Source of the DNA: Tuwongella immobilis
GTDB taxonomy: Bacteria > Planctomycetota > Planctomycetia > Gemmatales > Gemmataceae
Length of the DNA: 64,000 bases
Direction: 5' to 3'
NCBI RefSeq assembly: GCF_901538355.1
Contig: NZ_LR593887.1
Location: forward strand, 1,340,920 to 1,404,919
The notes beneath the pieces were generated by a model. That model made no database searches. It was not told the origin of the DNA and saw only the letters and a program-made list of their open reading frames with translations. Shown one piece after another: positions 1 to 17,267 of the stretch (positions within the stretch are counted from its first letter, which is position 1; each line of letters opens with the position of its first letter). Made by a program: the position numbers and the translations under genes.

Positions 1-1473
1 TTTGGCGGCATCGGTGCGTTGCCGTTGTTCGACCAGTTCGCGGGTGGCACTGGCCGATTCCGATTCCAGGCGGGCAAGTTCCTGTTCCCGGTGGGCGGCG
101 GTCAACGTTTGGCCACATCGGTCGCAGGTTGATTCGCCAGAGAGCGAGCGTAAATTCTTTTGCTGCTTGAGGATGCGATCGGTTTCGGATTGCAACTGTG
201 TCTGTCGATCGCGGGCGGCATGCCACGCGCTATCGGCGGCTTCTCGCGCTTCAATCGCCACCGCAACGGCCGATTCGGCAGCGGGAAGTTGAGCTGTCAG
301 CGTTACCAGTTGCGACTGATCGAGCGCCAATCGATCGGCGATTTTGTAACGAGTGTTGCAGTGTCGTTCGAAGAGGCCCAATCGATCGGCGGTGGCCTTC
401 AGTTCGGCCAACCGGGTGGGGAGTTCGCGGCCTGCTTGCTGGTGCTGTTCGCGGGCGGATTCGGTGGTCGATTTCGACGCTTCGAGCGCGGTCAATCGTT
501 GGGCCAATGATGCGAGGCCGGCCCGCAATTGTTCCAATTCTGGTGTCAATCGTGCGATCGTTTGCGTTGCTGTCTCGAGTCGATGTCGTTCCTGTTGGCA
601 GCGGTTCAACTGCGGCACCAGCGAGCGCAACTCCTGAAGCCGTTGATAGTTGGCGACAATTTCGGGACTGCGTTGGTGCAGGGCAGTGGCGGCGGCTTCT
701 GCTTGGTCGATCTCCGCGACTTGGCGTTGAATGTTCTGAAAGCGATCGGCAAGACGGGCACGCTCGCGCCAGTGGACTTCTTCCGCGTCGGCACGCTCAA
801 ACGCAGTTTGGGCCGCCGTGACACGCGATTCCAGTTGCAGATAATCGGCATCGTTGAGCGGATTCAGCAGTGCAATCTGCTGACCGATGGCGTGAGTCTG
901 CGCTTCGAGGCGTTTGGCCTGTTCGCGGGCATACGCATGGTAGGTTTCGATGCGATCGATGCCAAAGAGCCGATTCAATGCCGTGGTTCGCTCCGATGGT
1001 TTGGCATCCAACAGAGCCTCGGCCTGACCTTGTCGCAACAAGACCGAGTAGCCGAATAGCTCATCGGTGATTCCCAGGTCGGTCCAGAATTGGTTGAAGC
1101 CCGCATCCTGCTCCGTGCCATCGATGGGCTTCCAAATCGTTTCCTGCCAACGGAATGCGCCGCGGGTGGTAGCCGCACTCTGGTTGGCGCGACGGGGCCG
1201 CTGAATCGTGCGATCGACTCGATAGCGATTGCCTTGAAAATCGAATTCAAATTGAATGCTCGCCCGATCCGCCTGATGATGAATCAGGCGGGCGAAATCG
1301 CGCTGGCCGCCGCGGTGAATGCCAAACAGGGCCATGGAAATGGCATCGAACAGGGACGATTTGCCGCTGCCGTTGTGTCCGGCGAGCAGGCAGAGCGGGG
1401 CCCGCGCGAATTCGAGCGTGACCGCATCGCGGTAGCTGAGAAAGCCTTCGACGGTTAATCGAATCGGATTCAT
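1..1473 (-). CDS. sbcC: SbcC/Rad50-type SMC-like ATPase, partial (C-terminus beyond window)
   Basis: N-terminal 491 residues of an SbcC/Rad50 protein, the ATPase that holds DNA ends for the Mre11/SbcD nuclease. The protein opens with MNPIRLTVEGF and has a textbook Walker A, GHNGSGKSS, at residues 32-40. A long Arg/Gln/Glu-rich stretch typical of the coiled-coil arm follows. Residues 450-455 read CDRCGQ, the CxxC zinc hook at the arm tip where two molecules dimerise. The second arm and the Walker B half lie beyond base 1. The start ATG at 1473 overlaps the TGA of sbcD (ATGA), so the two are translationally coupled. It is the last visible gene of a seven-gene minus-strand operon that also carries HerA- and NurA-like genes. 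Confidence 0.93.
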   Translation of the reverse strand, partial: MNPIRLTVEGFLSYRDAVTLEFARAPLCLLAGHNGSGKSSLFDAISMALFGIHRGGQRDFARLIHHQADRASIQFEFDFQGNRYRVDRTIQRPRRANQSAATTRGAFRWQETIWKPIDGTEQDAGFNQFWTDLGITDELFGYSVLLRQGQAEALLDAKPSERTTALNRLFGIDRIETYHAYAREQAKRLEAQTHAIGQQIALLNPLNDADYLQLESRVTAAQTAFERADAEEVHWRERARLADRFQNIQRQVAEIDQAEAAATALHQRSPEIVANYQRLQELRSLVPQLNRCQQERHRLETATQTIARLTPELEQLRAGLASLAQRLTALEASKSTTESAREQHQQAGRELPTRLAELKATADRLGLFERHCNTRYKIADRLALDQSQLVTLTAQLPAAESAVAVAIEAREAADSAWHAARDRQTQLQSETDRILKQQKNLRSLSGESTCDRCGQTLTAAHREQELARLESESASATRELVEQRQRTDAAK

Positions 1474-2684
1474 TGCGATACCTGCCTGAGAATTTGGGGC
1501 AACAGTTGCAAGAGGGCGGCACGTTCGGCCGCATCGCTGACTTGCGAATCCAGGTAACGCACGATTCCGTCGTGGTCGCTGGCCTGACTGTTGCGATGCA
1601 CTTCAATTGCCGGGCCAGAGACCTGTTCCGTGGCAATCGGTTGACGTCGGGGAAAGATGACTCGCGGGAAGGCCGCTTTGGCGCGGGCGCGTCGAACACC
1701 ATCGTGTCGCGGATCGCCCTGGAACATCACCCGCACAATCGCCGATTCCCAATCGGGGACCAATTCCCGAAGTTGCTCGGTGGACGTTTCCGGATCATCG
1801 AACTCGATACTGCGTAACTCGTTGCATGGTAACGGAATCCGTTCGATGGCCCCTTCCAGTCCATATGGCCCGACTTCCACCAGCGTGACGCTCTTTTCGT
1901 CGTGCATTTCGCCGAAATCGAGCCGGGCGATACTGCCGGAATAGTGCATGTGGGCCATTCCGGGCAGGGCTTGCGCTTGGTGAATGTGCCCCAGGGCGAC
2001 ATAGGCCCACGCCGAGGGCAAATTCCCCAGCGGTAGCAGGACATCTTGCTGTTCCGTGAGCCGAAATAGCGAGTTGGGCGAGACACCTTCGACCGCAAAG
2101 TGACTCATCATCACCGTGGGCAGATCGACGCGAAACTTCGCATGCGTCGTGAACTTCGTGAGTTGTTGCACGAACGTATCCCGCAAGCGGCGATTGACCT
2201 GTTCCCGGTCCAGCGCTTGTTCCTCGGCGTCGAGATAATTCCCCGGTGTGGGGTACGGCATCAGCAAAAACTGCACCGATCGACCGGAATGCACACTGGC
2301 CACCTGACCGAGCATCGCCCGATTCGTCAGCACAAATCGCCCTGGCTGGATCACGTCGCCTTGCGAAAGCGGGCTACTCAATCCCATGGTGGTGCGAATA
2401 ATGTCCGGATACGGCGGCCGATCGTGGTTGCCGGTCACCGCCAGAATCACCCCACCGGTTTGCAGGTATAGTCGGAACGCTTTGGAAAGAAATTGCAATT
2501 CGGCATCAATTTCTCGGGGCCGCAGGAATTCCGCGAACAGATCGCCGGCGATGAGCAGCACATCCGCCGCGCGGTTGATCGCCAGTTGTACGATTCGCTC
2601 CACCTGAGCGTGCAATTCTTCGCTGCGGGAATAGCCGTGCAGCTTATCTCCCAAGTGCCAATCCGCAGTATGCAAAATCCGCAT
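1470..2684 (-). CDS. sbcD: SbcD/Mre11 exonuclease subunit
   Basis: Metallophosphoesterase nuclease of the SbcCD (Mre11-Rad50) complex, which processes double-strand ends and hairpins in the cytoplasm. All Mre11 metal-binding motifs are visible in order: HTADWHLGD near the N-terminus, AGDLF, TGNHDRPPY, SHFAVEG and ALGHIHQA. The length of 404 aa fits the family. I chose the ATG at 2684, with GGAG just upstream, over an in-frame GTG two codons earlier. The stop overlaps the sbcC start by four bases, and the gene begins 14 bases after the HerA-like gene. Placement directly between HerA and Rad50 genes mirrors the archaeal herA-mre11-rad50-nurA cluster. Confidence 0.95.
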   Translation of the reverse strand: MRILHTADWHLGDKLHGYSRSEELHAQVERIVQLAINRAADVLLIAGDLFAEFLRPREIDAELQFLSKAFRLYLQTGGVILAVTGNHDRPPYPDIIRTTMGLSSPLSQGDVIQPGRFVLTNRAMLGQVASVHSGRSVQFLLMPYPTPGNYLDAEEQALDREQVNRRLRDTFVQQLTKFTTHAKFRVDLPTVMMSHFAVEGVSPNSLFRLTEQQDVLLPLGNLPSAWAYVALGHIHQAQALPGMAHMHYSGSIARLDFGEMHDEKSVTLVEVGPYGLEGAIERIPLPCNELRSIEFDDPETSTEQLRELVPDWESAIVRVMFQGDPRHDGVRRARAKAAFPRVIFPRRQPIATEQVSGPAIEVHRNSQASDHDGIVRYLDSQVSDAAERAALLQLLPQILRQVSQ

Positions 2685-2698
2685 GAACACTCCGAAAC

Positions 2699-4555
2699 TT
2701 ACAGGTCATCGTGAATCATTCCCGCGCGGCCAGTCGCCGGGCGGCCGTTGGATCCGTTCGATTGCGCGGAATGCGATCCATTGCGATTCGCAAGTCCGGG
2801 AATCGGGCAAATGTCGGTTGCCTCGCCGGGACGCAGTGCCCACGCCGGGAAGGGGATTTTCACCAGTAGCGGCTCCCGGAATCCTGCCTGGCTGATCAGT
2901 TTTTCCTCGGGGCGAAGCATCATCGCCTTGGATTTGGCCGAATCGCTGAGAAATCGCCAGGTGGTGTGGCTCAGTTCGTCCGATCCCGAATGGCCCAGCA
3001 CGCGAATCGAGCTGTTTTCGATGACGCGCTCCGACACTTTCGAGGCTTGTTGCTGCGCCCCCAGCAGAATCACGCCTTGCGAGCGCATTTCCGCAGCGAC
3101 TCGCTCAATCAATCGGGTGATCGGGTCGCGGCTGCCTCGTGGTGCGAATCGGTTGAGTTCGTCCAGCATCACCAGGTAAATCAGCCCGGATTGCTGAGCG
3201 GCCGACTGCTTGGATTCGATGAGTTGCTGAAAGACCGTGGCGACGACAAATCGCTGCAAATCTGGCGTGTTGGCCAGCGATGCCAAATCGATCACCCGCG
3301 GCGCGTTGTTCGTTTGGCCGATGACATCCAGCGGATTGCTGTCGTGCCCACTGCGGATGATGCGATTATCCAGCGTGATGGCTCGCAATCGCCGGGCGAA
3401 TTTCTTCAGCGTCGCGTTGTGGTGTCGTTTGCCGAAGACGTCCACTTCGCCATTGGCAATCTGTTCCACCCAGCCGAGCAATTGGTCGAACGTCGTCACC
3501 CCATCCTTGGAATCCAGCGAGCGTTCCACTTTTTCGCCTCGGATGGTTTCCCGCGTCAATCGACTTTCGATGTCGTACATCAGCGTGGAAAAATTGGTGT
3601 CGTGGGCATCTTCTTCGGAGAACAGATAGCTGAACAGGCCACGTTCGATGACATCTTCCAGCGACCAGGAGTACGGCAGCGTGCGGGACTGATTCGTCGA
3701 AACCGGATTGCTGCCATTGCGAATCTGCGGCGCGAAGAAATGCGATCCGACGAACGGCGACGGGGCATCGCAGCCGAGCATCGTCCAATCCGCTAAGTGG
3801 TTGGCAGGATTGAAGTTCTGATTCCATCGATCGATATGGAACAGATCAAATCCCTTGACGTTGAAGATGATCGGCACGACTTGCAGCCGATCCGTCGCGG
3901 ACGGTTTGGTCCGATGTTGCCGATCGGCCTCGCGTTGCAGCAGATGCACGACATGCAAGAGAAACGACGATTTTGCTCCGCGCCCGGCGGTGCCATTGAC
4001 GTTGAGATGCCCGCCGTTGATGCCCAGCAGATAATCCAGATCAAACCCGCCAGGCCCGGCAAATTCGCGGGCACCATTGCGGATCAGCCCGACATTCATG
4101 CGCTGGCCCATTTCGTCCAAGCCATACGCCTTGGTGGCATCCGCTTGGCCCCCCAATTCCACGGCGCTGACCTCCATCGGCGGGCATTCCAACGGCGGAT
4201 CGCTGCGCAGAATCGAGGTGGCGGCGAAGGTGATGCCCGGCAGCGTGAACGGGGGCTGGTAGTTGGGGTCGCCGTCGTGCCGGTCGAATTCGTCGCTCAG
4301 CGAGGCCATCCGACTTTGGCGATAGACTTCGGTGGTTAATCCGAAAAATGACACCAATTCTCCGCCCAGATTGCTGGTCACTTTGACGATCTGGCCTTTT
4401 TCCACGACCACATCGGGACGGCACCAAAACCAGAATTTCTCAGAAGTCGCCTCGCGGTTCGGCGGAGAAGCGACTTGGCCAAGCAGAGTCGGGGAACTGC
4501 CGACCGGAGTGCCGACTTGGCGTGATTCCGGTTCGGGAAAAGCGGCAGGGGCCAT
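2699..4555 (-). CDS. HerA-like hexameric ATPase/translocase
   Basis: 618-aa ATP-binding protein of the HerA/FtsK superfamily. HerA translocates DNA and works with the NurA nuclease in end resection. A P-loop-like GTAGRGAKSS lies at residues 188-197, but one residue separates the last Gly from the Lys, so it is not a canonical GxxxxGK[ST]. Walker B (LIYLVMLDE, about 458-466) and a following ATPase segment with GAQQQASK (about 499-506) are clear. The N-terminal 80 residues read like the small beta-barrel HAS domain. The start ATG at 4555 has only a weak GAG upstream and lies 17 bases after the NurA-like gene. The HerA assignment rests on motifs and on its place between NurA and Mre11 genes. A related DUF87-type ATPase is the alternative. 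Confidence 0.82.
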   Translation of the reverse strand: MAPAAFPEPESRQVGTPVGSSPTLLGQVASPPNREATSEKFWFWCRPDVVVEKGQIVKVTSNLGGELVSFFGLTTEVYRQSRMASLSDEFDRHDGDPNYQPPFTLPGITFAATSILRSDPPLECPPMEVSAVELGGQADATKAYGLDEMGQRMNVGLIRNGAREFAGPGGFDLDYLLGINGGHLNVNGTAGRGAKSSFLLHVVHLLQREADRQHRTKPSATDRLQVVPIIFNVKGFDLFHIDRWNQNFNPANHLADWTMLGCDAPSPFVGSHFFAPQIRNGSNPVSTNQSRTLPYSWSLEDVIERGLFSYLFSEEDAHDTNFSTLMYDIESRLTRETIRGEKVERSLDSKDGVTTFDQLLGWVEQIANGEVDVFGKRHHNATLKKFARRLRAITLDNRIIRSGHDSNPLDVIGQTNNAPRVIDLASLANTPDLQRFVVATVFQQLIESKQSAAQQSGLIYLVMLDELNRFAPRGSRDPITRLIERVAAEMRSQGVILLGAQQQASKVSERVIENSSIRVLGHSGSDELSHTTWRFLSDSAKSKAMMLRPEEKLISQAGFREPLLVKIPFPAWALRPGEATDICPIPGLANRNGSHSAQSNGSNGRPATGRAGMIHDDL

Positions 4556-4572
4556 GGGTATCTCACTACATC

Positions 4573-5607
4573 TTAGATATTCAAAAGTCGATAAAAACGA
4601 TTCTGATAATGTTGGGGCGGCGTCATGCAGGCCGACAGCGATGCTTCGACCCGAACGATCGGCTCCAGCGAGATTGCCGACCGCTGATAGTCCGAGTGCC
4701 GCGAACGCAGATCATAAATCCGTTTCGACAAGCGATTGACAAAGTCGCTGCCCAGTTGTTGGGTCTCGAAGCGCTTCTTGGGCACCTCAATTCGCACAAT
4801 GCCCGAATTCGGCATGCTGCGATTGCTTCCCGCGAGTCGCAAAAACCATGTGATTACCGGCATATCGTGGCTTTGGACCGCAAAAAACGGCGTCCGTTCT
4901 GCTGGCGACAACCGCATCAGCACTTGGATGCCCTCGTTGTGCAGGTAGCGCTCGCGGGTATTCTTGATGACTCCCACGATATTGCGGGTCTCCAAGCCCG
5001 GCTGCGAAAACCAGCCAATTCGGCCATCCATCAGCGTGGGCACGTCCAGATTTTGGCAGAGAATCATCTCTTCCAGCACTTGCATTTCGCGCTGCACCCG
5101 AGTGCGTGGCTGATTCTCCATTGTCCCGAAATCAAAGCTGACGCGCCGCGCTCCCGATTCATCCAGCGGCGCGGGAGCATCCAAGAAGCGATAGCCATGG
5201 ACCTGCAATGCCGTGACGAACCCTTCGATTTCTTCCCAGGGAAACGGCTGCGAAATGAGCGAAACCACGCGCTGAACGACTTGGTTTTCGCGGCGTCCTT
5301 GCAGGGTGATGCAGCCCGCGGCAATCTCGGCCAGCCGCACCGGGATCGGCTCCCCAGTTGGTGCGCTCAGCCACAAGACCGTTTCGCCACGATGCCGACC
5401 GTCGATAAATCGTTGCGGCAGGTCGGTCAGATCGCCATCTTTGGTGGCGATGGGGAGCGATTTCCAGGAATCACGGGGATATTCCAGATCCAACTCCGGT
5501 TCGGCAGTGCCCGACTCATCCGAATCATCGGGGGGCATCGCCGGCAGCGATTGCGGCGGGGGCTGATACCGATTCCCCTGGTAGTTGTGCACAAATTCCA
5601 GACTCAT
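4573..5607 (-). CDS. NurA-like DNA-end nuclease
   Basis: 344-aa protein that I read as a NurA-domain nuclease, the partner of HerA. NurA-like signatures are FIDG (67-70, the first acidic motif after a variable N-terminus), an acidic helix EMQVLEEM (174-181), LMDGRIG (192-198), VGVIKNT (211-217) and RIEVP (272-276), then a C-terminal strand with RVEASLSA in the place of the usual Y-P-x-P-L...AH motif. Start chosen: ATG at 5607, whose ATGA overlaps the TGA of the IrrE-like gene. A longer in-frame extension to 5793 runs wholly inside that upstream gene. Family identity comes from these short motifs plus adjacency to HerA. A profile search with the NurA domain would settle it. Confidence 0.72.
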   Translation of the reverse strand: MSLEFVHNYQGNRYQPPPQSLPAMPPDDSDESGTAEPELDLEYPRDSWKSLPIATKDGDLTDLPQRFIDGRHRGETVLWLSAPTGEPIPVRLAEIAAGCITLQGRRENQVVQRVVSLISQPFPWEEIEGFVTALQVHGYRFLDAPAPLDESGARRVSFDFGTMENQPRTRVQREMQVLEEMILCQNLDVPTLMDGRIGWFSQPGLETRNIVGVIKNTRERYLHNEGIQVLMRLSPAERTPFFAVQSHDMPVITWFLRLAGSNRSMPNSGIVRIEVPKKRFETQQLGSDFVNRLSKRIYDLRSRHSDYQRSAISLEPIVRVEASLSACMTPPQHYQNRFYRLLNI

Positions 5608-6269
5608 TCTCGCCTCGATTCCTCCCGAATGCGGGAGGTTTTCAGCACGTCTTGCACCCGGTAGTGGGCCATCTCGTAGCTGACCAAACATTCGCTCATG
5701 AGTTGATGCACCGCGTAGCGATGCGTGGGGACCGGAATTTCTCGCGTGGGGGTCAGCACTCGAATCACGCGAGATTCCGGCACCAACAAGCACGCTGCAA
5801 ATTGATTCGCTTCGCGTTCCTGTTCCACGGTTTCCGTCTCGGCCCGGCCTCCCGGCGCTGGCGGTTCCAGATCCGAAGCCTCGATCCGCTCATCGGAGAC
5901 TTCGGATTCTTCCCGAATCCAGACGGCCTGATTCTCGTCTCGATGCAGCAGGAAATGACCCAATTCGTGAGCGAGCGTGAATCGCTGCCGCGGGATCGGG
6001 TCGCTACTGCGGAAAAAGATCATCGTGCGCCCCGACTGGAACGAGATGACATAGCCCGCCAGCGGCGTGTCATCCATGACGATCGATGTCCGCACGCCGC
6101 ATTCGATCAAGCGCGTGCCGATCTGTCGGCGAGTCAGATTCGGGTAGCCGTAGCAGGTCAGCCCCACCATGGTAAAATACTGTTCCAGCGGGATTGGGCC
6201 GCGGTCCGGCAGGTGGATTCCGGACCATTCGACCAATTGCTCCAACGCATTGGCAATTCGCGGTGTCAT
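5604..6269 (-). CDS. ImmA/IrrE-family metallo-endopeptidase
   Basis: 221-aa zinc peptidase of the ImmA/IrrE (COG2856) family. The gluzincin motif AHELGHFLLH lies at residues 100-109 and the downstream helix EREANQFAACLLVP, carrying the third zinc ligand region, at 151-164. In Deinococcus IrrE (PprI) cleaves the DdrO repressor after DNA damage. In mobile elements ImmA cleaves phage-type repressors. Unlike many members it shows no obvious N-terminal helix-turn-helix. The ATG at 6269 overlaps the upstream stop (ATGA), and its own TGA overlaps the NurA start. Position between a sigma factor and four end-processing genes suggests it controls them by cleaving a regulator, possibly the 182-aa protein upstream; that is inference. 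Confidence 0.88.
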   Translation of the reverse strand: MTPRIANALEQLVEWSGIHLPDRGPIPLEQYFTMVGLTCYGYPNLTRRQIGTRLIECGVRTSIVMDDTPLAGYVISFQSGRTMIFFRSSDPIPRQRFTLAHELGHFLLHRDENQAVWIREESEVSDERIEASDLEPPAPGGRAETETVEQEREANQFAACLLVPESRVIRVLTPTREIPVPTHRYAVHQLMSECLVSYEMAHYRVQDVLKTSRIREESRRE

Positions 6270-6814
6270 TGCGGATTCTCGGGCGGTTTGGGCTTCACCG
6301 GTCGTGCGGCCATCAAGAACGACGGTTCTTGCGATTTCGCCATCCACAGCAGCATCGCAGTCTTGCGGAACATCCGGCGATACCGTTGGGAGGCACCGGG
6401 CGGATTTTGTTCCAACCAGGGATTAAATTCTTTGGGCTGCGCCGGATCGGGAACCGCCGCTTGCGATTGCAATAACGCATCGTTGATCGCCTCATCTTCG
6501 GGCGAGAGGCGCTGTTGCGGATCGCGGGCATCCTGCTTTAACTGCCGGGCGACATCCCCCAGCGTGACCGTGTTGACAATCGTGGGCGGCGGTAGGTTGC
6601 CGCTGAGCAGATGCTGCTGAACCAAACCGCGGACATTTTGCACCGCGTTTTCTTCGGCAGCCAATCCATCTAATAATTCGCCCAGTGCGGTGGCGAGCGC
6701 ATCATCCTGTTCGGCGATGCCCCATAATTCCGCCATTACATCGAGATTCCCCGATTCAATGGCATCCAAGTACCGCAGGCACAAGCGATCAATTCGGTAG
6801 GGATCGGCATTCAT
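6266..6814 (-). CDS. unknown 182-aa protein between sigma factor and IrrE-like peptidase
   Basis: No family recognised. The protein begins MNADPYRIDRLCLRYLDAIE and is helical and acidic in its first half (EQDD, LGELLDGL), with a Pro- and basic-rich tail. No membrane segment or helix-turn-helix is evident. It lies immediately after an ECF sigma factor (4-base overlap) and before a peptidase (4-base overlap). Genes in that slot often encode the cognate anti-sigma factor, so a cytoplasmic anti-sigma factor or protease substrate is a reasonable guess. No ZAS-type His/Cys zinc motif is seen, which weighs against the commonest class. The ATG at 6814 sits inside the sigma-factor stop. Confidence 0.75.
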   Translation of the reverse strand: MNADPYRIDRLCLRYLDAIESGNLDVMAELWGIAEQDDALATALGELLDGLAAEENAVQNVRGLVQQHLLSGNLPPPTIVNTVTLGDVARQLKQDARDPQQRLSPEDEAINDALLQSQAAVPDPAQPKEFNPWLEQNPPGASQRYRRMFRKTAMLLWMAKSQEPSFLMAARPVKPKPPENPQ

Positions 6815-7368
6815 GACTGGCCCTCCTCGTCTGCAAGCATTGTATCACGAAGCCGGCGAAGTGCCCGCGACAAGCGCTGTCGGGCGGCATCCGGCCTCAC
6901 ACCAATGGCCGCGGCGAGGTCGTGTCCCTCGAGGCCGTCTTCGAATCGCAAACGCAGGATTTGTTGATCTTCAATTGACACTGCGGCCAAATAGCGTCGA
7001 ATTCCTTCCGCTTCTTCTTGTTGCTCCAGCGAACAGCGTTCCAGCTTGGCAATCACGTCGAACGGCTCCTCCTCGGTTTCGGGGAATTGCCGCAGACGTT
7101 GATGCCGACCGATTTGGTCTTTGGCGAGGTTGATTGCGATGCGGGTGGCATACGCAAACAGATTTCGATTCGCATCGAAGTTGTCTGCACATTCCAGCAA
7201 TCGCACGAACACATCTTGCACAATCTGCTCTCGGAAGGCGTAATCGCCAAATGTCTGAATCGAGGCCATCAAGCGGCGTGTCAGTTCGTCGTGGTACCGA
7301 GTCAGAAGTTCGTGCATCGTTGGTTGTTGGGGCGATGGTTCCGGTGTTTCCGAATTCCTCGTCTCCAT
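6811..7368 (-). CDS. ECF-type RNA polymerase sigma factor
   Basis: 185-aa sigma-70 family protein. Region 2 spans about residues 45-90, with QDVFVRLLE and a stretch NLFAYATRIAINLAKD that fits helix 2.3/2.4. Region 4 is at about 125-178, with a DQQILRLRFEDGL...LAAAIGV helix-turn-helix and a basic RQRLSRALRRLRD recognition end. I chose ATG 7368, preceded on the coding strand by AAAGGA, over a far upstream in-frame ATG at 7686 that would add about 106 residues unlike any sigma factor. First gene of the repair operon; the 295 bases upstream must hold its promoter. Planctomycetes carry many ECF factors, so the true regulon cannot be inferred beyond this operon. Confidence 0.92.
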   Translation of the reverse strand: METRNSETPEPSPQQPTMHELLTRYHDELTRRLMASIQTFGDYAFREQIVQDVFVRLLECADNFDANRNLFAYATRIAINLAKDQIGRHQRLRQFPETEEEPFDVIAKLERCSLEQQEEAEGIRRYLAAVSIEDQQILRLRFEDGLEGHDLAAAIGVRPDAARQRLSRALRRLRDTMLADEEGQS

Positions 7369-7663
7369 GCCGGTGGTCCTTTCTGGCTTCAGGTCGCGTT
7401 CTACCTGACTATACGAGTGGGGCCATCCGGCTGTGACAGCGAGAAATTCCAGACGGAATGATTCTGTCACTTTGGGAATTGTGGATGCCCACCGAGAACG
7501 CGCTCCGATCATCGCGGAAGTTCTGGATTGGATGATAGTGCAAGGATAGCGATTCATCGCGGAAGTGCAACCGCCCAAAGTGGTTCCGGAGACGGAGACT
7601 TCGGGCGGTGGCATTCCCAGCGGCAATCGTTTTCGGGGTGAAATCCGACAGAACCGATGGGAA
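7369..7663. other. intergenic region with the promoter of the sigma-factor operon
   Basis: No coding sequence supported. It separates the start of the repair operon from the end of the DUF1553 gene; both are on the minus strand. It should contain the promoter for the operon. I see no clear operator palindrome or DdrO-type site by eye. Confidence 0.5.
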
Positions 7664-10648
7664 CTAATCCGCGAAGACAAATTCATTGAGATTCATCAGC
7701 ACCCGGCAAGTATGGGCCCAGCCGAACTGGGCGGCATCCGCCACCAGGGCGGCACGCTCGGCATCGCTGGGCGCTCGGCCAACGGCCAGTTGCATCGCCA
7801 GCGTCGCTTTCGCGGCCGGGTTCGGTCCCGCTTCCCGCTCCAAACGATCGCCAAAATGTCGGGCCATCGCCAGCATCAGCCGATTGTTCAGCATCGCCAA
7901 CGCCTGCAACGGCGACTGCGATTGATTGCGACGTTCCACGCTCAGCGATGGATCGGCACAATCCAGGGACGCCATGAACGGTTGCTGCTTGGAGCGAACC
8001 AGAAACCGATACACACTGCGACGATGCAGCTGGGGATCGTCTGGATTCGCCTTGTCGTACTCATAATGCGGTGAATGTTCCGGCTTCTCGATCCCAAAAT
8101 CCTGAAAGCTCGGGCCACCCATGCGGCGATCGAGTTTGCCACTAATCGCCAACACCGCATCCCGAATCGCCTCGGCTTCGAGCTTGCGGCGATTCTGTCG
8201 CCACAGATAGACATTCCCCGCATCATTCCTCGCTGCATCCGGACGATTTTCGCTGGATTGTTGGTAAGCATCGCTAAGCACGATTTGCCGATGCAGCCGC
8301 TTCAGCGAACCGCCCGAATCCCGGAAGTCCGCCGCCAGCCAATCGAGCAATTCCGGATGCGAAGGAATCCCACCCATGCGACCGAAATCATTCGGCGTCT
8401 CGACAATTCCGCGACCGAAATGATACAGCCACACCCGATTGACGATCGACCGCCACGTCAGCGGATTTTCCGGCGCACTCAGCCAGCGGGCCAGGGCGGC
8501 TCGACGGGCACCTTCCGGGCCGTGGGTCGTCTCGGGAAACACGCCCGGCAGCGCGGTAATCGCCCGCAGCGCCCCCGGCTCCACCACTTGCGCTGGCTTG
8601 GTGACATCGCCACGCGGCAGCACCCGAATTTCTCGCGGCTTGCCCCCGTTGCCACCCGTGCCGACGAAGGCACCGCCGCCGGTATGCACCGCGCCAATGT
8701 AGGCGATTTGCTGAGCGGGCAGTGCGGCGATTTCCGCTTCGGTTTGCGCCAACTGCCGGGTCAATTCCGCTTCGCGGGCGCGAATTTCGGCGGGGATCTT
8801 CGCGAGTCGCAGCGATTCCAGCCGTTGTTGCAGTTGCGTGATTTCGCTGGCCGATCGGCGGGTGTCGCTCCAGGCAATGCCATCGGTCAGATTCGCTTTC
8901 GCCCAGCGGATCGGCGCTTCGATGCTATCCAACGCGGTGACTGGTTTGCCCCGTGCGCGATTCGTGCCGGTGCCATCGCGGACTTCCAGTTCGGCCAGCG
9001 CGGCGATGAAATCATTCTGGCGTGGGGCCAATTTCGTGATTGTGATGCGGACAAATCGTCCTTGGCTTTGCACGGGCAGTCGCATCGGCACCAGCTTGGG
9101 ATTTGGCACATCGGCTTGCGTGCGATCGACAATCACTCGGCCGCCATCCGCGAAGCGGGCATCGTCCGAGACGGCGATTTGAAACCGGACCGGAAAGCCA
9201 AAGCCCGCGCCAATGTTGTTGAAATCGTCATGGCAGGCGGTCACGACGATCTCCCGAATCGCGGTGGATTCGCCCAAATCGACTTGCACCCATTTGCGGC
9301 GATCCGCGCTCGGCTCAATGGCGGAATGGTAGCCATGCTGCGGCGGCTTGCTCGCCAGTTGCGGCGATTGCGCGGCTGCGATTTCGGCTTGCAGCTTGTC
9401 CAATTCCGGGCCGCCGAGTTTGGCGATGCGTTCCTGGAGCATCCGTTGTTCGTTCTGGTGGCGGGTCAATTGTTGCTGCAATTGCCGACGTTTGGCCGCA
9501 ATCTGCGGGTCGGCATCATACGCGCGATCCGTGCGATCCACCGCCGCGAACACCGCTTGCAGCCGGTAGTAATCTTCGGTCGGAATCGGATCGAATTTGT
9601 GATTGTGGCACTGCGCACAATGCACGGTCATCGAGACAAACGTGCTCATCGTATTGGCGACCATGTCGTCGCGATCCAGGTGGCGAGCGATTTTGCCATC
9701 AATCTTGCTTTCGGGCACCTCCGCATGGCCGATGAAATCCCACGGCCCCGCCGCGATGAAGCCCAGCGCTTCGATCCCGTCGCGCGTGCCGGGAAACAGC
9801 ACATCCCCGGCCACCTGTTCCTGAATGAATTGGGCATATGGCTTATCCGCATTCAGACTGCGAATGACATAATCGCGATACGGCCACGCATTCGGCCGCG
9901 GCTTGTCTTTGTCGTATCCGTGCGTCTCGCCAAAATGCACCACATCCAACCAATGCCGGGCCCAGCGTTCCCCGTATGCGGGCGATGCCAGCAGGCGATC
10001 GACCAATCGCTCGACGGCGTCGGGGCGCGAATCGGCAACGAATTCCGCGATTTCTTGCGGCGTGGGCGGGAGGCCAATCAGATCGAACGAGAGTCGTCGA
10101 ATCAGGGTGCGGCGATCGGCGGACGGCGACGGCGTCAACTGCTGCTCCGCCAATTTCGCCTGGATAAACGCATCAATGGGATTTGCCGGTTGATTGACTC
10201 CGGGCTGTTTCGGCAGCGCGGGTTTGACCAACGGCTTGAGCGACCACCACGTTGCCGCCGCCGACTTGCCATCATCTGGCCAATTCGCCCCATCTGCAAT
10301 CCAGGCACGCACCTTGGCGATTTCCGCAGCCGAAAGCGCAGCCCCTTTGGGCGGCATGCGATCGCCGTCGCTGGTGCCCGCGATTCTGGCCAGCAATTCG
10401 CTGGAATCTGGCTTGCCCGGCCCAATCACTGGCCCGGAATTTCCCCCTGCAAACGCCGCCGCCTTCGCATCCAAGCGCAGACCGCCCTTGGTCGATGCGT
10501 CGCTGTGGCACGAATGGCACGCCTTGGCGAAAATCGGCTGAATCTCACGGGCAAAATCGACGGATTCCCCCCGCGCCAGTGACGGCGAGACGGTCATTCC
10601 GCCCAGCATTCCCAGCAGACATGATCCGATGGAGAGCATTCGGTTCAT
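7664..10648 (-). CDS. PSD1 and planctomycete cytochrome C domain protein (DUF1549/DUF1553)
   Basis: 994-aa secreted multidomain protein typical of Planctomycetes. Order seen: hydrophobic signal segment (residues about 4-27), planctomycete cytochrome-c-like domain with heme-binding ACHSCH at 43-48, DUF1549 (PSCyt2) with WARHWLDVVHFGETHG and a second CAQCHNHKFDP motif, a central region resembling an F5/8-type discoidin fold, and C-terminal DUF1553 (PSD1) with NRVWLYHFGRGIVETPNDFG. Function of the family is not firmly known; redox-linked carbohydrate metabolism has been suggested. ATG 10648 is preceded by AAAGGA at good spacing; an upstream in-frame ATG at 10696 lacks this. It follows the WD40 gene by 48 bases, probably one transcript. 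Confidence 0.93.
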   Translation of the reverse strand: MNRMLSIGSCLLGMLGGMTVSPSLARGESVDFAREIQPIFAKACHSCHSDASTKGGLRLDAKAAAFAGGNSGPVIGPGKPDSSELLARIAGTSDGDRMPPKGAALSAAEIAKVRAWIADGANWPDDGKSAAATWWSLKPLVKPALPKQPGVNQPANPIDAFIQAKLAEQQLTPSPSADRRTLIRRLSFDLIGLPPTPQEIAEFVADSRPDAVERLVDRLLASPAYGERWARHWLDVVHFGETHGYDKDKPRPNAWPYRDYVIRSLNADKPYAQFIQEQVAGDVLFPGTRDGIEALGFIAAGPWDFIGHAEVPESKIDGKIARHLDRDDMVANTMSTFVSMTVHCAQCHNHKFDPIPTEDYYRLQAVFAAVDRTDRAYDADPQIAAKRRQLQQQLTRHQNEQRMLQERIAKLGGPELDKLQAEIAAAQSPQLASKPPQHGYHSAIEPSADRRKWVQVDLGESTAIREIVVTACHDDFNNIGAGFGFPVRFQIAVSDDARFADGGRVIVDRTQADVPNPKLVPMRLPVQSQGRFVRITITKLAPRQNDFIAALAELEVRDGTGTNRARGKPVTALDSIEAPIRWAKANLTDGIAWSDTRRSASEITQLQQRLESLRLAKIPAEIRAREAELTRQLAQTEAEIAALPAQQIAYIGAVHTGGGAFVGTGGNGGKPREIRVLPRGDVTKPAQVVEPGALRAITALPGVFPETTHGPEGARRAALARWLSAPENPLTWRSIVNRVWLYHFGRGIVETPNDFGRMGGIPSHPELLDWLAADFRDSGGSLKRLHRQIVLSDAYQQSSENRPDAARNDAGNVYLWRQNRRKLEAEAIRDAVLAISGKLDRRMGGPSFQDFGIEKPEHSPHYEYDKANPDDPQLHRRSVYRFLVRSKQQPFMASLDCADPSLSVERRNQSQSPLQALAMLNNRLMLAMARHFGDRLEREAGPNPAAKATLAMQLAVGRAPSDAERAALVADAAQFGWAHTCRVLMNLNEFVFAD

Positions 10649-10696
10649 CGTGGTTGGTTCCTTTGTGATGCGTTCCCTGGTTCTCAATCGGATCAT

Positions 10697-13600
10697 TTAC
10701 GGACCAACGACGCGAAGCAGCACCGGCTTGGCCGCGTGTTCGGTACCTTTGCGTTCTGACCGAGACAAAATCACCATCGGCTGGCTGGTCGGCTTGACCC
10801 ACGGCTCGGCGTACAGCACCACTTCGCGGCTGGTCTGGCCGGGCAGCACCAAAATGCCATTCAGCCCGATATTCATCACTCGCACGCCATACGGCAGCCC
10901 GCGCACTTCCAACGGCACGCGACCTTTAAAGTCGCCGAGTCGATCGATTTGCACGGTCAATTTCGTCTCCTGACCGGGGCGGATTTCGACGGCGGATTCC
11001 ACGGTGCGCGTCTGCAAATCGCCGGGGTCGCGCAAGGTGGGCACGCCGCCGACAAATTCCCGCACCCATTCCTGGCCGTTGACCATGGCGCGGGCGATCA
11101 GTCGAATCGGCTTGCTGTCCGGCTTTGGCGCGGTGGCCTGGGCATCGGCGAACAGTGTGATTGCGCTCGACCATTTGTCCGCATCCACCCGGCCTGCTTG
11201 CGAGCGAAAACCGGGCGGAAGATCGACCAATTCCACCGAGATTGCCTCCGCAAAGCCATCGTGCCGTTCGACTTGCACGCCAATGGGTAGACCGTTGCCC
11301 TTCCAGACGGCCGGGGCATTTGGCGTGAATCGCACGGTGAAATCCGGCTGCGGCGGTCGCACGGTCAGCCGATAACTCGCAATCGCACCCATGGATGCGT
11401 TCACCACCCCATCGGCGGCACGCACCCGCACCTGATAGACCGCATCACGCGGCGGATCGAATTCCAGCATCGAATCCGACCCGAAGCCCGGCCCACCATC
11501 ATCATTGCGTACCGGCAGGTGAAACACGGGCATCCCGTTTGGCGGAAACGTACTGCCCGGCGGGTGAATCGACACCTTGTAGACCGCCTCTGCTGCGGCA
11601 TGATAGCGCGGCGAGGTGCCCAGATATGCTCGGCGTTCGTTGTTGACGCTTTCGAACATGCAATCCGCATCCGGGTTGGCCGGAAGATTGTCAATTTTCA
11701 TCAATTCGCCGTTGATGTAAATGAAATCCTGCATTGCCAATTCGTTCCAGGTATCCAGCCGAATGCCAGGTTTTTTGCTGTCGTGCGGGCGAAAGGCGAC
11801 GGTGGTTTTCGCCTGGCAGCGCAGGGTGGCCCGTTCCAGCAGTTGGCCGGATTCATCCAGCATGTCGATGATCGTATCCACCGGCGAGCCAATTCGGGCA
11901 GCGTGCGTTTCGAGAATCAGCCGCTGCCCCTTCTTCGCGGGGAACTTCCAGATTTGTGCGGGAATTCCGTCGAGTCGGCCATTCCCAACGCCGGGGACGG
12001 GTAGCATTCCGGGAGCATGGACTTCAGGAACGTGGCCAATGCGCAGTTTCGCTTGCCCCAGGATGCCTGGCGGCAACGTCACTGGCAGATCGCCGCCGAT
12101 TTTGGCAGTCGCCGGAATCGCTACCGGGAGCGACTCTTGCGGCAGATTCACGCCGATGAGTTGCACGGTTCGCGTGGTGCCGGCCTGTCCGCCTCGCGGG
12201 AAGATGCCAGTGACAATCGGAATCGGCCCCAGATGCAGCCGATATTGGCCCGGCCCGCGATATTGCCGATCGCGCACCCAAATTCGATAGTCGCCGGCCT
12301 GCGGGGCACGAATCGCCATCAGTCCGCCCATGCCCTCGCCGAGTCGCTGGCCGCTGGCGGTGCCCCATTCCAACACGGGGTCAAACGTGGCGCTGGCATC
12401 GTGCTGCAATTGCACGCCGACCTGCTGCCCGGCGGCGAGCGTGATCGCAAAGGCGTCGACTTCGCCCGCTCGCGCGATTTCGCCATGGATGCTGACCGGC
12501 AGTGTCAGTGCAGAATCGCGCAAACCGACTTCCTGCCGACCGGGAAAGCGATCAACTAGCAGCGAAATCGGCTTCACGGGGCCAGAAGTCGCCTTCAGTG
12601 TCAGCGTGACCGTTCCCGGCTCGACCGTGGCGGGAATCTGCACGCGGAGGATCCGCTGCGTGGGGGGACCGTCGAGCGGCTCCAGTGTGGCGACGATGCC
12701 GGGCAGCGAAGCAGTGACGCCGGTGAGCTGCTGCAAATGCTTGCCAGTCAGGTTGAATCGCTGCGTTTGACCGCGTGTCATCCGCGTCGGGGTGACGCTC
12801 TCCACCATCGGGAGCGGCGGTTTCTCCGCCTTGGGGGACGCCGTGTGGGACGCCGTTGCGGATGCGCCGACGGGTTGGGTTGCGGCCTGTGGAGCGGGTT
12901 TGGGCGCGGGCTGGGTTGCCGGTTTGGGCGCGAGGACGGGCAGGACGGTCTGTTCGGCTTTGCCATCGGCAGCGGCGAGCAGTTGCAACCCGCCATCGAA
13001 TCGACCGACGGCCAACTGGTGCCCATCGGGACGCAGGGCCAGCGACTGCACCGAGTCGCTTCGTGGTGCGAAGACGGCTTGCTCGGCAAGTGTGGATTCG
13101 CTCCAGCGTTTGATGACTTTGTCTTCGCCGACGGTGAACAATGACGCATCCGACTGGCCCATCAGTAGTTGCAGCACGGCTCCTTGATGGGCAAACGCAC
13201 TGCGAACGAGTTTGGCCCCGTCGCCGTTGGCCTCCCAGATGCGGAGACTGCGATCGACTCCCGCCGCCACCAGACGCTTGCCATCGGCTGTCCAGCGCAC
13301 CGCATACAGCCAATCGGTGGCATCGCTCAGCGTGTAGAGCCGATTTCCCGTGGCGATCTCCCAGACTTTGACGGCACGATCCGCCGAGACGCTGGCTAGC
13401 CATTTTCCGGTGGGGTCGATCGCCACATCGTAGACGGAATCACTGTGATCGGTGAGCGTGCGGATGAGTTTGCCGCTGGCCGTGTCCCACAGTTGAATGC
13501 GGCGATCGTAGCTGGCCGTGGCTAACAATTGCCCATCGGGCGTGAAGGCGATGGCGGGGATGCGGTCCCGATGTGCGGCCGGCAGCGTCCAGCGTGTGGT

Positions 13601-13987: not shown

Positions 13988-14358
13988 GGGGAGAGTCTCC
14001 AGGCAAATCGGCAAACCAAGCCCGATTCTAACCCCAGATTCCGGTCGGCGAAAGCAGGAACTGCCGGGATTGACTCGCCGACTCGCCGGAGCCAGCATCG
14101 CAGAAGTCGCTGGAAAATCGGTTCATCTCGGTAGCCGGCCTCCGACGATGAGCCGGATTTGTGGAGCGGTTTGAGCAGCTTGGAAGGCTCAAAATGCCGC
14201 TGGAGAGGCTCAAACAATGCGGATCCACTCGTCTGAGTAACTGCAAGCGAAGGTCGTCAACCGGTCTACCAAACGCAGAGCATTCGGCTGCAGCAATGGG
14301 GACAGAAGCCGCCCTTCAGGTGTGCGGCTATGGGATTTAGTAATTAAGAGCGTATCAG
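13988..14358. other. non-coding stretch before the CPCC fragment
   Basis: No gene supported. It holds the presumed promoter region of the WD40 operon on its left side. Several overlapping short frames here lack ribosome-binding sites or family features. Confidence 0.4.
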
Positions 14359-14553
14359 ATGGTTCCCTGTACGGCGTGTGGATCTCTGGCGATCGAGACC
14401 CAGCATGTTTGGGATATTTGCCCGGTATACTTCTGGGAATGCGATGTCAGATTGTATGGTCGTGATGATGTGGTTAGTTCTGCCAAAGGGAGCATGTCTC
14501 GGAACGTGGTTCCATACGGTGCCTCTGCTGTGTTCTCGATCCACCCACGGTGA
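14359..14553 (+). pseudogene. decayed CPCC-family (cysteine-rich) gene fragment
   Basis: 64-codon frame whose first 50 codons match the intact CPCC-type protein at 18883-19191 in both protein and DNA: VPCTACG...IETQHVWDICPVYFWE against FPCPACG...IETQHDWDICPVCFWE, and then GRDDV. One cysteine of the ICPVC motif is Tyr, and after about codon 45 the sequence departs and stops early, about 40 codons short of the intact copy. It is therefore a truncated second copy. It lies 2.6 kb left of the first Hint fragment, beyond an unrelated three-gene operon, which suggests that the toxin array once extended further left. Confidence 0.7.
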
Positions 14554-14558
14554 GCGGC

Positions 14559-15617
14559 CTACTTGAGGATGTTTGTGATCTGAGAGTCCTGTAGAAGTCC
14601 GTTGAGAATAGCCAAGATTACTTCTTTCCGTCCCGGCATCTTCTCGTCCGACAGCAAACTCCCAAGCTTTTCGGACACCTTTTTTAAAATCTCTTCGCAA
14701 CAAGTCAACAGTTTATCCTCGGGAACACCGTTCGACGCAAGGATTACACTGATCGCTTCTTTGATATCTTCATCGGACCGAATCGGTCCGACTACTTTCT
14801 TCCGAATTTTTTCCACAGGTTTTAATTGATCTTGAAGTAAATAGACGGCGCGGGCCTTGAACTTGTCCTTACGCGGCAGGACTTTTGTTTTGATGATGTA
14901 CTGCTTAATGTCTTCTGGCGATTTGTCGGTCAGCGGTCCTTGCCCCTTGATTTCTGCGATGCCCTCGTCAATTTGCTTGTCGTCAATGGCGACGAAGTTT
15001 CTGTCCAGATAGCCTTGCGATACTTTACTCACTTTGTCTTGATTGTGCATGCTCCATTCGGATGTTCCGACGCGACTGTACATGTGTCCCAGCAACCAGC
15101 CAAGCTTCGCCTGGAATGGCTCGGTAAGCTGTGCAACTTTCGCTGCGAGGCACAGCGGATAATGCTGTGCGCGTAAACTTACAGAGAGCGGTAAGAAGGC
15201 ACAGCACTCGGGCTGAAGGCCAATGGATGCGTCTTGGTGCAAGTAGAAATAGCCAGGTTCGTTGTTGTCGATTACTCGGTCAAGGAGTTGGGACAGTTTG
15301 GCCCTCAGCCTCATGCTGATGACGTTTGTAGCTGCTTGCCATGGCTCCTGTCCTTTTGCGGCTTCCAAGCGAACGACATCGTCGATCGACCGAACAGCGG
15401 CTAATGAAATGTAGTCCGCGTTGCAGCGGACCCCGTCTCTTCGAACTAGATCGCAAGACTGAGTGAGAACGAGAAAGAATCGGTAATCCGCATGCGCAGC
15501 ATAGTACGGAAAGTATTTCTGTAGTTCCGCGACAAGTTCTTCAGTCCGCCTGAGGACGTCCCCCTGACAGAGAGAGTTGTTGTCCGGCTCGTCCTCAAAT
15601 ATGTAGTGTGTCGGCAT
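14559..15617 (-). CDS. unknown 352-aa protein with TQSCDLVRR motif
   Basis: No family named with confidence. Notable features are an N-terminal CQGDVLRR, a hydrophobic strand ending FLVLTQSCDLVRRDG at about residues 47-61, and an alternating-charge C-terminal half (about 230-352) rich in Lys/Glu that should be helical. Cytoplasmic: no signal or membrane segment. It is the third gene of a compact minus-strand trio, starting 22 bases after the 84-aa gene. Some proteins with a similar hydrophobic-strand-T-Q-x-C-D motif occur in bacterial conflict loci as far as I recall, but I cannot tie it to a named family. Base composition is less GC-rich than flanking housekeeping genes, consistent with transfer. 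Confidence 0.82.
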   Translation of the reverse strand: MPTHYIFEDEPDNNSLCQGDVLRRTEELVAELQKYFPYYAAHADYRFFLVLTQSCDLVRRDGVRCNADYISLAAVRSIDDVVRLEAAKGQEPWQAATNVISMRLRAKLSQLLDRVIDNNEPGYFYLHQDASIGLQPECCAFLPLSVSLRAQHYPLCLAAKVAQLTEPFQAKLGWLLGHMYSRVGTSEWSMHNQDKVSKVSQGYLDRNFVAIDDKQIDEGIAEIKGQGPLTDKSPEDIKQYIIKTKVLPRKDKFKARAVYLLQDQLKPVEKIRKKVVGPIRSDEDIKEAISVILASNGVPEDKLLTCCEEILKKVSEKLGSLLSDEKMPGRKEVILAILNGLLQDSQITNILK

Positions 15618-15639
15618 GCGCGGGCCCGCCTGCCTCGAC

Positions 15640-15894
15640 TCAGTGCGTCTTACCGTGGAGTCGGATGTTTTCGTTGATTGCAGTCATTCGCTGCTGTGCG
15701 CAAAGAACCTTTGGGTTTACGCGAAGGACGATGGAGTTTAGTCCTTTCACTACGCGAACCGCGATTGTGGGAACGTCTCCAGTTTCCGTAGCGGTGGATC
15801 CGCTCGCCTCGCCGCGTGCCTCAGCGCGGATCAGTTGGGCGCCAGCCACGTTCACTTGCGTCCTCGATCCGATGGTCATGCTTGTGTCACTCAT
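15640..15894 (-). CDS. unknown 84-aa protein
   Basis: Small protein starting MSDTSMTIGSRTQ at ATG 15894, whose A overlaps the TGA of the preceding 211-aa gene. Beta-rich middle (PTIAVRVVKGLNSIVLRV) and a basic C-terminus; no signal peptide. A longer in-frame start at 16002 exists but overlaps the upstream gene and lacks support. Middle gene of the three-gene unit; the overlap implies coupled translation with its neighbour. Function unknown. Confidence 0.68.
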   Translation of the reverse strand: MSDTSMTIGSRTQVNVAGAQLIRAEARGEASGSTATETGDVPTIAVRVVKGLNSIVLRVNPKVLCAQQRMTAINENIRLHGKTH

Positions 15895-16526
15895 CGTCCG
15901 TCTCCCTCGGCACAGTTCGGTTGGAGGTGGTAGATCGTGTCTAGAATATTCAGAGCGGTATCTTTTAATCCGACAGCCGTGTCTTTCAGTGCCGCTTGGC
16001 AATCCTCATTATCTTGTGATTCAGTGTGAAAGTTGAACTCGAAATCCACTCCGTAAGGCCCATAGATCAGCGTCAGGTTGAGTACCGACCCACCTCGGGT
16101 TGTCTTGCGAACAATCTTTCGTTCCTGAACTTCCCAGCCTTCGCCCGCCAACTCCGGTCCATCGGTGAGGTTGAAAATATCTAGCACTTTGTCCGGCGGA
16201 TTTTCCTCCCGGAATGCAAAGTTCACCCCAACGGCAATGAGTGGCGTGTCGTCCAGCTCTCGCAAGATGCGTAGCGCCATTTGCTCGGCCCGTCGAAGGC
16301 AGACATCGTTGGCCTTGCGGGGGTGAAAAACCAGTCGCGGTTGCGAGACTTCCATCACCACCTGCTCGTCACGGTAGACGAGAGGAAGGACCGGCATCAG
16401 GGCAACCAGCGTCTCGATATCACCATTCGCCGCAAAAAGGTGCTTGCCCACCCATTCCGGCGAGAAGATCATCCGATTCCAATGCCCGGCCAGGACAATT
16501 GTCCAGCCTTCCATCTTCGGTGTCAT
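15891..16526 (-). CDS. unknown 211-aa protein, first gene of three-gene operon
   Basis: Starts MTPKMEGWTIVLAGHWNRM. Soluble, mixed alpha/beta composition, with no catalytic motif that I can name. The N-terminal segment (WTIVLAGHWNRMIFSPEW) looks like strand-turn-helix. A central stretch has LIAVGVNFAFREENPPDKV, and the tail repeats LKDTAVGLKDTALN. Its TGA overlaps the ATG of the 84-aa gene. The three genes are codirectional and tightly packed, with no housekeeping gene among them, and lie next to a toxin/immunity island. An uncharacterised conflict or defence module is plausible but unproven. Confidence 0.8.
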   Translation of the reverse strand: MTPKMEGWTIVLAGHWNRMIFSPEWVGKHLFAANGDIETLVALMPVLPLVYRDEQVVMEVSQPRLVFHPRKANDVCLRRAEQMALRILRELDDTPLIAVGVNFAFREENPPDKVLDIFNLTDGPELAGEGWEVQERKIVRKTTRGGSVLNLTLIYGPYGVDFEFNFHTESQDNEDCQAALKDTAVGLKDTALNILDTIYHLQPNCAEGDGR

Positions 16527-16978: not shown

Positions 16979-17267
16979 TCAAAGCCCGCTCGCTGACGCC
17001 GGGCCACCGGCTCCGCACGCTCGATGGCTCCGCGATCGCCGTGGAATCCGTCGCCGAGACGGGCCAATGGCAGTCGGTGTTCAATCTGCGGCGGAACGTG
17101 CGGAAACGGATTCAGAACGGCTTCGTTTCGACCTCAAGGGAAAAGCAATTCGATGGTTAAACCAAAAAGGAGTTCGGCCTGCGCCTGGTCATGAAGATTC
17201 TTTCGAAATACCTCAAGAATTGCTCGAAGAGTTCAACCAGATGATCTCAAAGATCCGTTGGGGGTAA
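16979..17267 (+). pseudogene. cassette A: Hint fragment joined out of frame to a short toxin-tip remnant
   Basis: Bases 16979-17090 encode KARSLTPGHRLRTLDG...GQWQSVFNLR, the middle of the Hint domain, and nothing of its N- or C-terminal blocks. At about 17090 the reading frame changes. The new frame encodes about 57 residues starting AERAETDSERLRFDLKGKA and ending NQMISKIRWG with TAA at 17265. This tail looks like the very end of a toxin but its family is not recognisable. The stop is four bases from the next ATG, the spacing expected of a toxin-immunity pair. Confidence 0.7.

Follow-up and report, generated by a model that had tools for sequence, protein, structure and literature searches.

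The first 7,368 nucleotides of the window, a 64,000-nucleotide stretch of the Tuwongella immobilis genome (NZ_LR593887.1, positions 1,340,920 to 1,404,919), hold a seven-gene operon on the minus strand that encodes, in this order, an extracytoplasmic function (ECF) sigma factor, a protein of 182 amino acids (aa), an M78 (ImmA/IrrE-type) peptidase, NurA, HerA, Mre11 and Rad50. We read this operon as a horizontally transferred, inducible module for processing DNA ends, most likely serving in defence against phage or plasmid DNA, and we give this reading an even chance of being right. The operon itself is real and more than a chance arrangement, as its order and many of its overlaps recur across genera and phyla. 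An earlier note, made from the letters alone, had described one operon with 4-base overlaps at most junctions; this holds for all seven genes, with such overlaps at four of the six junctions (sigma/182-aa, 182-aa/peptidase, peptidase/NurA and Mre11/Rad50) and gaps of 17 bases between NurA and HerA and of 14 bases between HerA and Mre11. In the genome, rad50 continues for 1395 bases past the window edge and there meets the end of a convergent gene, and 295 bases separate the end of the next upstream gene from the sigma start, a codon picked from the length of relatives in an open frame that extends to 7686. The operon is therefore closed at both ends.

Judged by sequence, both NurA and HerA are related to their counterparts in Deinococcus radiodurans (PDB 7f6d). 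The identity of the 4573-5607 product had been named beforehand as a point on which the operon's interpretation could fall; it is NurA, the family profile finding D. radiodurans NurA (7f6d_H) at 1.8e-7. The single sequence scores 18.8 bits in Pfam, below the cut-off of 21, PF09376 is matched at 0.01 by one of 15 family members, and a search of the T. immobilis genome with PF09376 at 0.001 found nothing; the idea that NurA is a wrong call owing to this Pfam miss was rejected on the strength of the profile match. Asp69 and Asp194 are present in all 30 aligned module NurAs and Glu94 in 20 of them. The HMMER alignment to D. radiodurans NurA stops short of Asp69, which would correspond to its D53; the D53A mutant is reported to be nuclease-inactive (PMC9960219). 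HerA, without a Pfam match, finds D. radiodurans HerA (7f6d_B) at 1.1e-43 alone and at 1.1e-68 as a profile. It lies below the NCBIfam HerA equivalog cut-off (18.4 vs 970 bits) and is matched weakly by the PADLOC HerA models (best 6.5e-4). Residues K195, S/T196, D237, D465 and E466 are kept in 32 of 32 rows, and by eye the P-loop Lys-Thr and Walker B Asp-Glu of D. radiodurans HerA align with conserved residues of the module protein. Mre11 is above the Pfam cut-off, matches TIGR00619 (SbcD) with 116.2 bits (cut-off 77.65) and has D8 and H10 in 30 of 30 rows. Rad50 matches AAA_23 at 4e-20 and the SbcC model TIGR00618 with 157.4 bits, below its cut-off of 478.5; the whole 955-aa protein has a Walker A motif (GHNGSGKS), a CDRC hook motif and LSGS, and its PADLOC matches, LmuB (2.7e-29) and mad3 (1.1e-28), are models of other systems that recognize it as a relative. 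The active-site residues of the effector proteins thus look intact.

The three genes at the front of the operon form the putative switch. The sigma factor matches Pfam Sigma70_r2 (38.8 bits) and r4 (28.3 bits), both above cut-off, as well as TIGR02937 (68.7 bits, cut-off 42.9). The 182-aa protein, a candidate anti-sigma factor that the peptidase may cleave, has no Pfam match above cut-off and none in NCBIfam or PADLOC 2.0.0 at E values up to 1, a range in which PADLOC likewise has no model matching NurA or the sigma factor; across its family, Pfam gives scattered weak matches to single members only (best TetR_C_28, 4e-4). Its AlphaFold2 model consists of two small helical domains (predicted local distance difference test, pLDDT, 86), and comparison with the PDB yielded no interpretable fold (Foldseek best E 1.5, VIA best Z 4.4). 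The gene directly follows the sigma gene in all 11 Gemmataceae loci that have both, and its full-length matches are confined to module loci in ten of the ten carrier genomes searched, and the idea of a generic planctomycete sigma partner was rejected on this ground. In two of six further places its N-terminal domain adjoins other ECF-like sigma factors, once as part of a protein with a hydrophobic, membrane-type stretch. In Calothrix (L175, L178, G098; L and G are our numbers for loci and genomes) this domain is fused to an apparent receiver and a LuxR-type output. The T. immobilis genome also carries, at G000:C1:4357108-4357290 (L134/L156), a 147-bp relic of a second 182-aa gene, 78% identical in DNA and about 11 kb from a Cas1 gene at 4368544; apart from a sigma match of 27% identity, a tblastn search with the proteins of the module detected none of the other module genes next to this relic.

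The peptidase matches Pfam M78 with 61.5 bits (8.8e-17), and its best PADLOC match is capP (5.6e-19), a model of another system that it resembles as a relative. It has HELGH at residues 101-105 and an invariant E151, and the best fold matches of its model are IrrE (3dti), PprI with single-stranded DNA (8sln) and CapP (7t5t), with E values of 4e-5 to 8e-4 and template modelling (TM) scores of 0.44-0.50. Of 26 aligned peptidases, 24 have the full HExxH and two read HALGH and HTLGH. The catalytic Glu is lost only at the sister loci L024 and L025, both of which are also without the sigma and 182-aa genes; this pattern, from one lineage, would be expected if proteolysis matters only alongside these two partners. 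No XRE-type repressor partner was found, as none of the seven proteins matched a helix-turn-helix repressor family in Pfam or NCBIfam (sigma region 4 apart). Upstream of the sigma gene, a TGTCACA element on the minus strand lies within an inverted repeat, GTGACAG/CTGTCAC (7433-7439 and 7464-7470), and suggests a possible autoregulated sigma promoter. The motif, defined after the sequences had been viewed, occurs in 10 of the 19 upstream regions, where 1.3 would be expected by chance; a stricter form, which the T. immobilis region does not match, occurs in six of the 19 (0.34 expected).

The module is patchy within the Gemmataceae and extends far beyond them. Of 95 Gemmataceae genomes (66 of them good), 20 (17 of the good ones) have a HerA relative, always together with NurA. 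At loci with enough DNA, the sigma and 182-aa genes are each present in 11/15, the peptidase in 16/17 and mre11 in 17/20. The sigma and 182-aa genes are missing at L024, L025, L030 and the degraded L040, the peptidase at L040, and mre11 at L025, L029 and L024, the last on a contig that stops 1.3 kb beyond herA. Scanning named genomes gave 31 loci, 15 of them outside the Gemmataceae set and 13 after dropping L073 (a weak match) and L070 (identical to L046). In 11 of these 13 all three regulators stand in the same order; the other two, L051 and L053, are cut by contig ends. The 11 loci belong to Cyanobacteria (Mastigocoleus, Calothrix twice, Chlorogloeopsis, Brasilonema and a Xenococcaceae metagenome-assembled genome, MAG), Chloroflexota (Thermogemmatispora, a Caldilineaceae MAG and another MAG), Armatimonadota and Acidobacteriota. 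In these counts the split peptidase frame of L050 is taken as present and the degraded L040 as a miss. The linkage of sigma factor, 182-aa protein and peptidase to the quartet, the other point on which the earlier note had staked its reading, is thus conserved both in the Gemmataceae and across phyla, the module order recurring in five phyla and on two plasmids. High-scoring HerA was found in at least one of 386 Cyanobacteria (the seed genome itself) and at least four of 350 Chloroflexota (the seed included), both lower bounds, since at most three candidates were scored per genome; among the matches listed for 392 sampled Planctomycetota, the high score is that of T. immobilis itself, joined by one distant match. 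A contig labelled as a Bacteroidales MAG (L030/L067) is identical to one placed in the Gemmataceae, and its label is doubtful.

The patchy distribution, the plasmids and the HerA tree are best read as horizontal spread. The full set is carried by plasmid unnamed2 of Candidatus Chlorohelix allophototropha and by the 40-kb mobilizable plasmid6 of Aulosira laxa NIES-50. The HerA tree does not follow taxonomy: the Gemmataceae fall into at least two separate groups, and the one with T. immobilis clusters with Cyanobacteria, Chloroflexota and Armatimonadota (support 95/98). When flanks were compared between genera, two same-genus pairs aside, only weak matches of 29-34% were found, to kinase-like and Cas3 frames. 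Two copies are interrupted. In G006 (L041:9935-11608) about 1.7 kb of other DNA lies within herA and contains a frame that by eye resembles a transposase (9970-11256, minus strand); this module is probably inactive. In G027 (L031:12718-14106) rad50 is broken by about 1.4 kb, again with a frame that looks transposase-like by eye.

The quartet also occurs without the switch. We examined 20 loci of the distant HerA class, 18 of 26 from the Cyanobacteria and Chloroflexota samples and two of five distant plasmid matches. In 14 of them (Cyanobacteria, Chloroflexota and two plasmids) nurA, herA, mre11 and rad50 stand together; two of the rest are cut by contig ends and four have herA alone (L118-L121, where no NurA, Mre11 or Rad50 neighbours were detected). 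None of the 20 has a sigma or 182-aa gene, and a peptidase match was found in two, one of which adjoins the quartet on a Streptomyces plasmid. To call the quartet unusual in bacteria, as the earlier note did, was therefore too strong; the distinctive part of the operon is the three-gene switch at its front. In L112 (Chloroflexota), a divergent XRE-like regulator gene (9337-9738, by eye) replaces the sigma/182-aa/peptidase front, which fits a front end that is exchangeable and would have a regulatory role. In L077, on plasmid unnamed2 of Streptomyces sp. BB1-1-1, a divergent ImmA/IrrE gene adjoins a quartet ordered herA-mre11-rad50-nurA, with nurA last; the TIGR02680, TIGR02678 and DUF2397 genes beside it are reminiscent of a Wadjet locus.

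At many loci the module has defence genes as neighbours. The flanks tested are those of 14 Gemmataceae loci out of 20, the others lying on contigs that are short or degraded. Open frames were picked greedily by length, a procedure that may miss some genes, and the defence proteins named here had been chosen for scanning because they were recognized or suspected. Genes of the clustered regularly interspaced short palindromic repeats (CRISPR)-Cas systems lie within about 3 kb past rad50 in four of the 14 loci: Cas4-Cas1 starts 371 bases after the end of rad50 in L031, Cas3 lies about 180 bases (L041) and about 390 bases (L039) past it, and L033 has Cse1 and a CT1975-type Cas protein from about 3 kb. 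Other flanks encode GmrSD (L032), ThiF with a multi-ubiquitin protein (L027), HsdR (L058) and DUF4011 (L059), and the Chlorohelix plasmid (L074) carries Swt1-HEPN, TIR and DUF1156 genes. The DUF3375/DUF4194/SMC-like set beside the module in L057 is one that we take to be of the Wadjet type. In Calothrix sp. PCC 7103 (L048:5634-6434 and 16216-17238) a DUF6884 gene and a gene of the TGT family stand on either side of the module, an arrangement reminiscent of genes for 7-deazaguanine DNA modification. At 1e-10, 82 module-flank proteins matched 123 PADLOC families against 36 matched by 100 control proteins (of 115) encoded around the housekeeping SbcCD genes in these 14 genomes, a rough measure, as many PADLOC families model the same type of gene; no cas family is among the control matches listed (25 of the 36 families).

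Within this broader reading we tentatively propose, as less likely than not, a new inducible defence in which a mobile NurA-HerA-Mre11-Rad50 degradase is controlled by a DNA-activated M78 protease, whose cleavage of a soluble anti-sigma factor would release an ECF sigma factor dedicated to the module. In the main reading, the 182-aa protein would keep the sigma factor inactive in the resting cell. A DNA-end or single-stranded-DNA signal would activate the peptidase, which would cleave the 182-aa protein; the freed sigma factor would then transcribe its own operon, so that the nuclease is made only on demand. HerA and NurA, together with Mre11-Rad50, would act on free DNA ends by degrading or resecting them, an activity that we infer from the D. 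radiodurans NurA-HerA pair and SbcCD. Both PprI and CapP are described as switched on by single-stranded DNA (PMC10904395; PMC13373217). The earlier note had offered a damage-triggered proteolytic switch or an anti-phage unit; mobility and neighbourhood are more in keeping with defence against phages or plasmids than with a housekeeping damage response, and the proteolytic switch stays a proposal, supported by the conserved linkage, the IrrE/PprI/CapP fold match and the loss of the Glu at L024 and L025. A different account of the front genes, which we regard as improbable, is that the peptidase pairs with the 182-aa protein in a way that is toxin-antitoxin-like or purely structural, with the sigma factor answering an unrelated stress and the genes merely co-transcribed. 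It draws on the hypothetical nature of the cleavage substrate and on L030, where the peptidase is kept without the sigma and 182-aa genes; the contiguous sigma-182aa-peptidase order across five phyla and on plasmids speaks against it.

Several observations weigh against the proposed inducible defence. At L030 HELGH is intact despite the missing partners, and the N-terminal domain of the 182-aa protein, which also occurs on two response-regulator-like proteins, is not specific to anti-sigma factors. The model of the 221-aa peptidase ends in helices and has no C-terminal alpha/beta GAF-like domain; as PprI is reported to need such a domain for activation by single-stranded DNA (PMC10904395), the trigger may differ here. 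The module is incomplete at L025, L029 and L053, where downstream DNA is present and no mre11-rad50 adjoins herA (neither gene in the 6 kb after herA in L053, a Planctomycetota MAG), and L112 and L113 have a close HerA without the switch. A scan of IMG/VR found no relative of the module and a phage collection gave only two HerA genes, of 23-24% identity, in two phage records, and phage-borne copies were accordingly rejected. The CRISPR adjacency, four of 14 loci against an assumed zero of 14 controls, is barely significant (one-sided p 0.049). Finally, no recognized defence gene adjoins the T. immobilis copy, and about 87 kb separate the sigma gene from the nearest Cas1 found in that genome.

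This last point is also where the main competing account finds room. The operon could be an inducible cassette for double-strand-break repair, in which the switch senses genomic damage, the quartet resects the ends of broken chromosomes for recombination, a role proposed for it in thermophilic archaea, and the module moves because stress tolerance is selected for. In archaea the quartet forms the resection set (PMC2288612, PMC4641729), IrrE/PprI is described as controlling the damage-response genes of Deinococcus (PMC10904395), and the T. immobilis copy lies outside an evident defence island. We nevertheless think this account unlikely, if still worth serious attention. The T. immobilis genome already has a separate second SbcCD pair at G000:C1:2661321, so that the Mre11-Rad50 of the module is an extra copy, and a PF12705 (AddB/RecB-type nuclease) match in a 1116-aa frame; the module is patchy, on plasmids, and near CRISPR and restriction genes; and D. 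radiodurans without nurA-herA loses no resistance to ultraviolet light or mitomycin C, being by the same report about 10-fold more, not less, resistant to both (PMC9960219). Mobility, neighbourhood, the extra SbcCD and the Deinococcus phenotype together favour, rather than prove, defence over repair. Replacement of AddAB/RecBCD by the module was also considered and rejected, as PF12705 matches occur among carriers (10/20) as well as non-carriers (50/75), with no clear exclusion. A role as a CRISPR accessory, in which the resection machine makes fragments for spacer acquisition or finishes Cas-cut DNA and the linkage has been lost elsewhere, would account for the cas genes close behind rad50 in L031, L033, L039 and L041, and has a parallel in the nurA-csm6-herA clusters described beside CRISPR arrays in Pyrobaculum (PMC3396285). 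No cas gene was recognized at the other 10 of the 14 Gemmataceae loci or in the other-phylum flanks viewed, with Pfam run on part of the flank proteins, and this, along with the distant Cas1 of T. immobilis, leaves such a role with only a slim chance. CRISPR-array repeats were found neither in window positions 14000-30000 nor in L001, by the T. immobilis module.

The features of the operon are collected in Table 1. The proteins encoded next to it look, by eye, like cytochrome/DUF1549-type, WD40 and PAS-kinase-receiver proteins. Further along the window, a 352-aa protein (14559-15617, minus strand) without a Pfam match at 1e-5 opens a stretch of lower G+C content (0.53 and 0.50 at 14-18 kb).

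Table 1. Features of the sigma-to-rad50 operon, in window positions
Feature	Position	Strand	Basis
ECF-type sigma factor, 185 aa	6811..7368	-	Pfam Sigma70_r2/r4, TIGR02937
182-aa helical protein (x182), candidate anti-sigma, candidate peptidase substrate	6266..6814	-	linkage
M78 (ImmA/IrrE-type) metallopeptidase, 221 aa	5604..6269	-	Pfam 61.5 bits, PADLOC capP, fold
NurA nuclease, 344 aa	4573..5607	-	family profile vs 7f6d_H
HerA ATPase/translocase, Deinococcus type, 618 aa	2699..4555	-	match to 7f6d_B
Mre11/SbcD nuclease, 404 aa	1470..2684	-	TIGR00619
Rad50/SbcC ATPase, N-terminal 491/955 aa inside window	1..1473	-	AAA_23, motifs
Upstream region, possible autoregulated sigma promoter	7369..7663	-	inverted repeat with TGTCACA

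A literature search by title and start of abstract found no description of the seven-gene unit; preprints and most subscription papers lay outside its scope, and this is no proof of absence. The available parts of PMC2933680 and PMC8567305 add nothing on the unit. If the proposed mechanism is true, this would be, within the literature searched, the first M78 switch to act through release of a sigma factor instead of cleavage of a repressor, and sigma release by an M78 protease would be added to the known routes by which immune operons are switched on in response to DNA damage or incoming foreign DNA. It would also mean that an archaeal-type end-resection set has become a mobile, switch-controlled module in bacteria. 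The prediction is directly testable with a few purified proteins and a plasmid-borne copy.

The module can be compared with several known systems. The archaeal herA-nurA-mre11-rad50 cluster brings together the same four families, whereas the module has bacterial-type sequences, the order nurA-herA-mre11-rad50, the sigma/182-aa/M78 front and a horizontally scattered distribution. HerA-SIR2 and HerA-DUF4297 are defence pairs of a HerA-type ATPase with a DNA- or NAD-cleaving partner; in the module, the partner of HerA is NurA plus Mre11-Rad50. CapP-CapH and IrrE(PprI)-DdrO employ an M78 peptidase of the same fold that, by our hypothesis, here controls its own operon; unlike them, the module has no XRE repressor and no C-terminal GAF-like domain that we could see, and the proposed target is bound to the sigma factor, so that cleavage would release an activator instead of removing a repressor. 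The closest solved relatives of NurA and HerA, those of D. radiodurans (PDB 7f6d; PMC9960219), are encoded by what is described as a two-gene operon, in contrast to seven genes with their own sigma factor, 182-aa protein and peptidase. In the Pyrobaculum nurA-csm6-herA clusters the NurA-HerA pair is likewise linked to CRISPR-Cas; these are archaeal and described as vertically inherited, and the clusters as given in that report include no Mre11-Rad50, sigma factor or M78 gene (PMC3396285). In the module, known parts come in an arrangement that is new, conserved and mobile: a putatively M78-controlled, DNA-responsive operon driving a HerA-type nuclease complex.

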